From assembly GCF_000013225.1 (NCBI RefSeq), contig NC_007776.1:1765001-1829000 (forward strand): a DNA stretch of 64,000 nucleotides, in the 5' to 3' direction. Positions 52,800 to 61,361 of the stretch are shown one piece after another. Each line of letters begins with the position of its first letter. The first letter of the stretch is position 1. The notes below the pieces were generated by a model that worked only from the letters and a program-made list of their open reading frames with translations, had not been told where the DNA came from and ran no database searches. This stretch comes from Synechococcus sp. JA-2-3B'a(2-13). GTDB lineage: Bacteria > Cyanobacteriota > Cyanobacteriia > Thermostichales > Thermostichaceae. The translations under genes were made by a program, and so were the position numbers.

Positions 52800-53858
52800 A
52801 TGACCATAGCGGTAGGGCGCGTGCGTCAGGAGCGAGGATGGTTCGACATCGTCGATGACTGGCTCAAGCGCGACAGATTCGTGTTTATCGGCTGGTCCGG
52901 GCTGCTGCTGTTCCCCTGCGCTTACCTAGCCCTGGGCGGCTGGCTCACCGGCACCACCTTTGTAACTTCCTGGTACACCCACGGGTTGGCCAGCTCCTAC
53001 CTGGAAGGGTGCAACTTTTTGACCGTAGCCGTCTCCACCCCCGCCGACAGCATGGGGCACAGCCTGCTGCTGCTGTGGGGCCCCGAAGCCCAGGGGGACT
53101 TCACCCGCTGGTGCCAGATTGGGGGGCTGTGGACCTTTGTGGCCCTGCACGGAGCGCTGGGGCTGATTGGCTTTATGCTGCGGCAATTTGAGATTGCCCG
53201 GCTGGTGGGGGTGCGGCCCTACAACGCCATTGCGTTTAGCGCGCCGATAGCGGTGTTTGTGAGCGTGTTTTTGATTTACCCGCTGGGGCAGAGCAGCTGG
53301 TTTTTTGCGCCCAGCTTTGGGGTGGCGGGGATTTTCCGCTTTTTGCTGTTTTTCCAGGGGTTCCACAACTGGACGCTGAACCCGTTCCACATGATGGGGG
53401 TGGCTGGCGTTTTGGGTGGAGCGCTGTTGTGTGCCATCCATGGGGCGACGGTGGAGAACACCCTGTTTCAGGATGGGGAGGCGGCCAGCACCTTTCGGGC
53501 TTTTGAGCCGACGCAGTCGGAGGAGACCTACTCGATGGTGACGGCCAACCGGTACTGGAGCCAGATTTTTGGGATAGCGTTTTCCAACAAGCGGTGGCTG
53601 CACTTTTTCATGTTGTTTGTGCCGGTGACGGGTTTGTGGATGTCGAGCATTGGGGTAGTGGGGTTGGCGCTGAACCTGCGGGCGTATGACTTTATCAGTC
53701 AGGAGGTGCGGGCAGCGGAAGACCCGGAGTTTGAGACGTTTTACACGAAGAACATTTTGCTGAACGAGGGGATTCGGGCGTGGATGGCGCCGCAGGACCA
53801 GCCCCATGAGCGCTTTGAGTTCCCTGAAGAAGTCCTCCCCCGCGGCAATGCGCTCTAA
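52800..53858 (+). CDS. psbD: Photosystem II D2 reaction-centre protein
   Basis: A 352-residue D2 protein, full length, thylakoid membrane, five helices. It binds P680, pheophytin, QA and the non-haem iron with D1. Conserved features include [15 protein letters not shown] (redox Tyr-D region), the His of [20 protein letters not shown] and [15 protein letters not shown] 52800 follows CTGGAGAGA. Unlike the usual psbD-psbC operon, psbC does not overlap its 3' end; a terminator follows instead. It is therefore the stand-alone copy, often called psbD2. Confidence 0.97.
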
Positions 53859-53933
53859 AGGAAGCCGTTCTGGTCTCGTCAGGGATCCGCTCCCGGCGAA
53901 TCTTAAGTAATCCACTTGAGTATTGAAGAGTTC

Positions 53934-53960
53934 AGGGATCCCTCATGGGATCCCTTTTTG
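53934..53960 (+). terminator. Intrinsic terminator built from two GGGATCCC repeats
   Basis: AGGGATCCCT and TGGGATCCCT, separated by two bases, can pair as a long stem, followed by TTTTTG. It lies 75 bp after psbD. Each half is itself a perfect palindrome of the genome-wide repeat, so the RNA could also fold as two smaller hairpins. Confidence 0.8.
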
Positions 53961-53977: not shown

Positions 53978-54541
53978 CTAGGAAGGGATCCCGTCTCGCA
54001 GGCGGGCGCGAATGGCTTGCCAGATCTGTTCAACCAACTGGGGCGGGCTAGTTTCTGACCGGATGGGCACCCGCACATCGGCTTGGGCGTAGAACGGCTC
54101 TCGCTCTTGCATCAGCTTGTACAGGGCAGCTTGGGGGTCGGGGGTTTGCAGCAGGGGGCGTTGGCCGGGATCCCGCTTGAGCCGCTGCCAAATCAGCTCG
54201 GGGGCCACATCCAGCCAAACGGTGAGGCCATGGTGCAAGTAGCTCCAATTTTTGGGGCGCAACACAATGCCGCCGCCTGTGGCGATCACCAGCCGGGTGT
54301 AGCTGCTCAACTGGGCCAACACCTGCGTCTCCAGATCCCGGAAGTAGGCTTCCCCATGCTCGGCGAAGATCTGAGCGATGGAAGAACCCCCCACCTGCTC
54401 CACCAGACCATCGGTGTCGAAAAATTGAAAGCGCAACTGGGCTGCCAGCTCCGATCCCACGGTGGATTTGCCGCTGCCCATCATCCCAATGAGATAAACA
54501 TTTACGCCGCGCAGGCGCTCAACTTCCTCGGGGTGGATCAT
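53978..54541 (-). CDS. aroK: Shikimate kinase
   Basis: A 187-residue kinase that phosphorylates shikimate with ATP on the way to chorismate. The P-loop is [11 protein letters not shown] (about residue 19), the shikimate-binding Asp is in FFDTDGLVE, and ATGGGIVLR follows. The lid Arg lies in RDPGQRPLL. It starts 11 bp after ribE in the same direction, suggesting an operon ABC-F, ribE, aroK. Confidence 0.95.
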
Positions 54542-61300: not shown

Positions 61301-61329
61301 AAAAAAAATGCACCAGCGCACGCTGGCGC
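61301..61329 (-). terminator. Intrinsic terminator after ycf23
   Basis: On the minus strand a GCGCCAGCG-TG-CGCTGGTGC hairpin (61310-61329) is followed by A then eight T. It lies 33 bp after the ycf23 stop. Confidence 0.88.
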
Positions 61330-61361
61330 AAGAGGGTCAACTTTTACCGGTCAGACATCGA

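Follow-up and report, generated by a model that had tools for sequence, protein, structure and literature searches.

A hairpin built from two copies of an iterated palindrome is a probable intrinsic terminator behind psbD in Synechococcus sp. JA-2-3B'a(2-13)

HIP motifs, the iterated palindromes of cyanobacteria, have been a puzzle since the 1990s. Elhai (2015, PMC4390886), in a study whose topics were methylation and mismatch repair, had already found the octamer GGGATCCC to be the most over-represented one in Synechococcus OS types A and B. A matching DNA methyltransferase was reported there for genomes with HIP sequences, and it was considered that replacement (alternative) HIPs might be altogether functionless; words starting with 'terminat', 'hairpin' or 'intergenic' are absent from the main text of that paper. 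A study of PCC 7002 always found HIP1 among the leading motifs surrounding stable ORFs and offered no explanation for it (PMC7406221).

Terminators built from a repeated motif have been described in Neisseria and the Pasteurellaceae, where uptake sequences (USS/DUS) are present in roughly a thousand copies or more per genome and their use in termination is described as co-option (Kingsford 2007, PMC1852404). Their stems are close complementary copies of the motif, and in the stem behind psbD examined here one copy of an iterated motif likewise pairs with a second, complementary one. Cyanobacteria are described as having no known Rho (PMC3219970, PMC7406221), and their L-shaped Rho-independent terminators carry a GC-rich hairpin and a U-tract after the gene (PMC3219970, PMC7406221), as does the site behind psbD.

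The window, the whole stretch of 64,000 nucleotides that was analysed, corresponds to positions 1765001-1829000 of a single-contig genome of 3,046,682 bases (the source genome, G000). The psbD gene in it is one of two (Table 1). The other copy, at G000:C1:888126-889178, encodes an identical D2 protein and is followed by an apparent psbC, as read from the sequence. Usually psbD and psbC overlap; at the other psbD copy and psbC in L045 (G000:C1:886626-890678), L055, L056 and L052, there is no overlap and the spacer is well over 100 nt.

The preliminary description of this DNA held that two palindromes, two bases apart and followed by five T, make a strong stem. Inspection of the sequence bore out the arrangement, with AGGGATCCCT at 53934-53943, CA at 53944-53945 and TGGGATCCCT at 53946-53955, and also the strength of the stem, but the details required correction. 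The hairpin is AGGGATCCC-TCAT-GGGATCCCT, with a 4-nt loop that takes in the inner T bases of the two 10-mers and a 9-bp stem, six of whose pairs are GC, formed by A53934-C53942 with G53947-T53955. The first of the five T closes the second 10-mer and is paired with A53934, leaving four T beyond the stem. The predicted RNA fold has a stability of -17.8 kcal/mol (z -3.0), equalled in 1 of 200 shuffles, and folding 121 nt of the intergenic region still gives the hairpin.

The distance from the psbD stop to the hairpin is 75 nt. On the plus strand TTTTGTGT directly follows the stem; on the minus strand there is no T-run. As the hairpin also forms on the aroK strand but lacks a T-run there, the signal is oriented psbD's way, and a two-way terminator for psbD and aroK was ruled out on the same ground. 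The site combines the anatomy of an intrinsic terminator (a GC-rich perfect stem, a short loop and, confined to the transcribed strand, a U-tract immediately after the stem) with a position shortly behind a same-strand gene.

A scan of the whole window for stems followed by T-runs gave 13 candidates at or below -8 kcal/mol, among which the psbD hairpin was the most stable, one of four that are intergenic, and the sole one built from HIP copies. A crude scan of 44-64 kb recovered it as one of two 9-bp stems; terminator-like sites in that scan numbered 26, against 24.6 in shuffles, which is no overall excess, and being so near the shuffle level the crude scan alone proves nothing. Elsewhere in the window, a strong non-HIP terminator-like hairpin with T8 lies on the minus strand at 61309-61330, behind a called gene.

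Table 1. Features at the psbD locus, in positions of the window (G000, source genome; G001 and G004, other genomes of the genus).
Feature	Position	Strand	Remarks
psbD (photosystem II D2 protein), second genomic copy, no psbC behind	52803..53858	+	TIGR01152, 776.5 bits
Near-HIP GGGATCCG in psbD 3' region	53882..53889	.	AGGGATCC kept in G000, G004, G001
Hairpin, left arm AGGGATCCC	53934..53942	+	contains HIP copy 53935-53942
Hairpin, loop TCAT	53943..53946	+	ATGA (reverse complement) in G004
Hairpin, right arm GGGATCCCT	53947..53955	+	contains HIP copy 53947-53954
T-run, predicted terminator U-tract	53955..53959	+	first T in stem, four after
aroK (shikimate kinase), convergent to psbD	53978..54541	-	family match
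Third HIP copy, last codons of aroK, outside hairpin	53985..53992	.	in 5/6 genus genomes

We identified GGGATCCC as the HIP of this genome: it is a palindromic octamer, lies far over expectation and falls within about 1000-2000 copies per Mb. There are 4096 copies in 3.05 Mb, compared with 53 of the backwards pattern as control, and 62 in the window, where 2.1 are expected. With so many copies close pairs must exist, and a pair alone therefore needs no explanation. The psbD pair could accordingly be a product of chance, its adjoining T-run accidental and the whole without function, and the genome-wide count fits such a view in that random placement at uniform density would put about 55 pairs at a gap of 3-12 nt, more than the about 21 that were seen (20 among 100 listed of 102 pairs, plus one of the two unlisted). 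There is thus no excess of closely spaced complementary copies of the kind known for uptake-sequence terminators; pairs at this distance fall short of the uniform-placement figure by a factor of about 2.6, perhaps because hairpins are avoided in coding DNA. At gaps of 13-30 nt the shortfall is slight (about 80 versus 99 expected).

What speaks against chance is the sequence beside the pairs. The preliminary description had proposed a genome scan for close pairs followed by T-runs, and such pairs were counted. YTTT follows 114 of the 8192 single HIP ends; at this rate 0.58 of the about 42 strand-ends of pairs with a gap of 3-12 nt should carry YTTT. Eight do (P 1e-7), a coincidence of pair and T-run 14 times over expectation. 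For gaps of 13-30 nt, the figure was 2 of about 160 strand-ends versus 2.2 expected, and both of these pairs lie within genes, antisense. By the gene calls of a simple codon-score caller trained on the window, all eight of the closer pairs with a T-run are intergenic, and a same-strand reading frame ends 22-94 nt before each. At seven this frame is a called gene; at the eighth it is a 155-aa DUF4278 frame, 43 nt before the pair, recovered at a lowered score cut-off. Pfam and NCBIfam matches identify the upstream genes as psbD, psaB (a psaA/psaB family match), groEL (chaperonin 60), phoD (PhoD-like phosphatase), phnD (phosphonate-binding protein), a fatty acid desaturase and DUF4278; the remaining one has no Pfam match.

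The 13 pairs with a gap of 3-12 nt and no YTTT are divided between genes (7) and intergenic DNA (6). One of the six, a minus-strand pair at G000:C1:2903027-2903046 (L150 1501-1520), 22 nt behind a gene, is followed by GTTTTTTT, outside the YTTT pattern, and is probably a ninth HIP-pair terminator. Single copies behaved as chance would have it: among the matches listed, 36 single HIPs outside any pair are followed by TTTT, and these are mostly within genes (25/36), with a same-strand gene end no more than 150 nt upstream in 3 of the 36. Since most of them lie within genes and few can form a good hairpin, a single HIP with a T-run was ruled out as a terminator by itself. One of the 36 (L182) is a decayed pair behind a gene. 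ARAGORN found no RNA gene or tRNA near 11 hairpin loci, and an Rfam search of 12 hairpin loci matched only glutamine riboswitches (RF01739), at L013 827-925 and L070 2100-2194; these precede a DUF4278 gene that has a HIP-pair terminator-like hairpin behind it.

Genomes of the genus were compared for the same arrangement. In six of them (the source genome included) a HIP pair is followed by YTTT at 25 strand-sites, with all six represented, and by RAAA at two strand-sites in two genomes, one of these being the other face of a T site. All 25 T sites, eight in the source genome and 17 in the relatives, are intergenic. A called same-strand gene ends within 150 nt of 11 of the 17, or of 12 with a lower threshold and 200 nt; L065 is cut by the contig end, with the psbD stop visible, and no gene was called at L062, L068, L071 and L075. 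Orthologous sites carry a pair at psaB in four genomes, at phoD and at phnD in three each, and at psbD, DUF4278, the desaturase locus and one unknown locus in two each. The identity of the arms among these pairs is fixed by the search pattern, while loops vary; at the four psaB pairs both loops and flanks differ.

Behind psbD-II, a T-run hairpin was present in 4 of the 5 genus genomes whose psbD-II 3' end was seen. G004 has AGGGATCCC-ATGA-GGGATCCCT, a 22-mer that is the exact reverse complement of that in the window: the hairpin (window 53934-53955 versus L016 129-150) is inverted as a block with its arms unchanged. The two genomes differ at 24 of 128 aligned bases outside the loop and at 1 of 36 within 40 nt around the hairpin, whereas all 4 loop bases are changed, each to that of the reverse complement. 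A single inversion between the arms would be far likelier than four substitutions (about 1.5e-5, as a crude product). G001 has GGGATCCC and a decayed CGGATCCC followed by T7 (fold -14.5 kcal/mol), and G003 has GGGGATCCT and GGGATCCC, then TGTTTTTT (fold -17.5 kcal/mol). In G005 neither psbD copy has a HIP pair or such a hairpin behind it, and in G008, of the same order, psbD is followed by a hairpin of unrelated, non-HIP sequence and T9. No compensatory base changes were found among the relatives, in which the arms are set by the search pattern or changed on one side only; pairs are kept or lost, so that this is conservation without covariation.

These comparisons bear on two of the alternatives. 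A predominance of T over A of 25 to 2 in the genus and the retention of the psbD T-run hairpin in four of five genomes, together with the enrichment behind genes, make chance a very improbable source of the psbD site. The pair might instead act at the level of DNA, as a methylation, repair or protein site whose folding is incidental, and HIPs are indeed tied to DNA methyltransferases (PMC4390886). However, such an element gives no reason for one-sided T-runs behind genes, and G001 and G003 have each lost one octamer and kept the stem and T-run, which argues that the RNA matters here and not the DNA octamer. We consider a DNA-level role highly unlikely; the RNA hairpin, more than the DNA octamers, appears to have been the target of selection.

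Pairs of the classical octamer HIP1 (GCGATCGC) were surveyed in 388 cyanobacterial genomes. With a gap of 3-12 nt they are followed by YTTT 506 times, in 161 genomes, and by RAAA 173 times, in 112 genomes; T exceeds A in 124 genomes and A exceeds T in 30. Thirty loci of each kind were fetched. Among the T loci (31 strand matches), 18 of 31 matches are intergenic and 14 follow the end of a same-strand gene by no more than 150 nt, versus 1 of 30 and 0 for the A loci. On visual inspection about 18 of the 30 A loci seem to represent a single conserved gene, and when A loci of one gene were collapsed the intergenic fractions were 18/31 for T and 1/13 for A (P 0.002). As the other 13 of the 31 T matches lie within genes, many with CTTT, the HIP1 pattern is a mixture. 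Several HIP1 T sites are two-way (AAAA-pair-TTTT). Arms of GGGATCCC with T5 are also found in numerous unrelated bacteria: a contig scan matched at least 80 stretches, and of the 80 listed 72 came from such bacteria (the other 8 came from records titled Synechococcus, Synechococcaceae or cyanobacterium); such arms are therefore not special to HIP genomes. The psbD site had been introduced as a rare case, a wording that calls for revision given at least eight such sites in the source genome, 25 in six genomes of the genus and HIP1 pairs likewise elsewhere.

The proposal that the pair forms the psbD terminator fared better. It is well supported by the anatomy, position and directionality of the site, by T-run hairpins in relatives, and by genome-wide enrichment with controls, and the site very probably serves the monocistronic psbD copy as an intrinsic (Rho-independent) terminator. 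From the sequence, predicted fold, position, enrichment and relatives, we infer that transcription ends at this hairpin. The mechanism is best read as standard intrinsic termination in which HIP copies serve as the arms. Two octamers close enough to form a hairpin would base-pair as the RNA emerges, and the T-rich DNA that follows would give a weak RNA-DNA hybrid at which the polymerase lets go. HIP is identical to its reverse complement, so a perfect stem results wherever two copies lie 3-12 nt apart. A HIP-filled genome thus supplies ready-made terminator arms, from which pairs beside a T-run behind a gene would be retained.

The stem may in addition protect the mRNA 3' end. That this is its main role, on an mRNA ended elsewhere or processed at the site, appears unlikely but deserves more weight than the alternatives above. 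Genes with a pair include psbD, psaB, groEL and glnA, and in PCC 7002 transcripts with a hairpin and U-tract are longer-lived, in addition to the recurrence of HIP1 around stable ORFs (PMC7406221). A T-run right after the stem is nevertheless a requirement of termination, and the two roles are compatible. Beyond psbD, HIP palindromes across cyanobacteria could serve as modular, orientation-free terminator arms, any two at hairpin distance forming a terminator where they adjoin a T-run, with pairs purged from coding DNA and kept behind genes, often highly expressed ones, and sometimes working two-way between convergent genes; we judge the case for this wider proposal to be evenly balanced. If true, it would assign a function to a small subset of HIPs and would explain the presence of HIP1 near stable transcripts in PCC 7002.

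About 16 of the 4096 HIP copies (<1%) lie in such pairs. With so few involved, the terminator use of HIPs is a local co-option and not the reason for their abundance, and Elhai's view that alternative HIPs may lack a function is not overturned for the bulk of the copies. The result nonetheless defines a HIP subset with a probable, cheaply testable function, common to two different HIP sequences. For the cyanobacterial transcription field it provides a concrete prediction, checkable in existing 3'-end data (GSE29264, S. elongatus; PMC3219970).

That a genome-wide repeat has here become a transcription signal, as the preliminary description put it, is supported, although it has a precedent in the uptake-sequence hairpins of Neisseria and Pasteurellaceae (PMC1852404). 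The two systems differ in several respects. HIP is itself palindromic, so the orientation of copies is irrelevant, unlike USS/DUS, and it is not known to be an uptake signal. Close HIP pairs are scarcer than random, whereas opposite-strand USS copies are in excess at short distance, and uptake-sequence hairpins account for about 55% of terminators in Neisseria (PMC1852404), as compared with eight sites found for HIP here. The psbD site differs from ordinary cyanobacterial terminators (PMC3219970, PMC7406221) in that both arms are whole iterated octamers. The flipped loop resembles the small hairpin-loop inversions described in chloroplasts, in which a loop is likewise inverted between inverted-repeat arms; here the hairpin is a putative cyanobacterial terminator, the arms are HIP copies and there is one case only. 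HIP-built terminators were not described in the titles and beginnings of abstracts found by literature search, which does not establish their absence from print. As far as these searches reach, HIP as a terminator building block is new, while the kind of co-option was already known from uptake sequences (PMC1852404) and is extended here to a motif tied to methylation.
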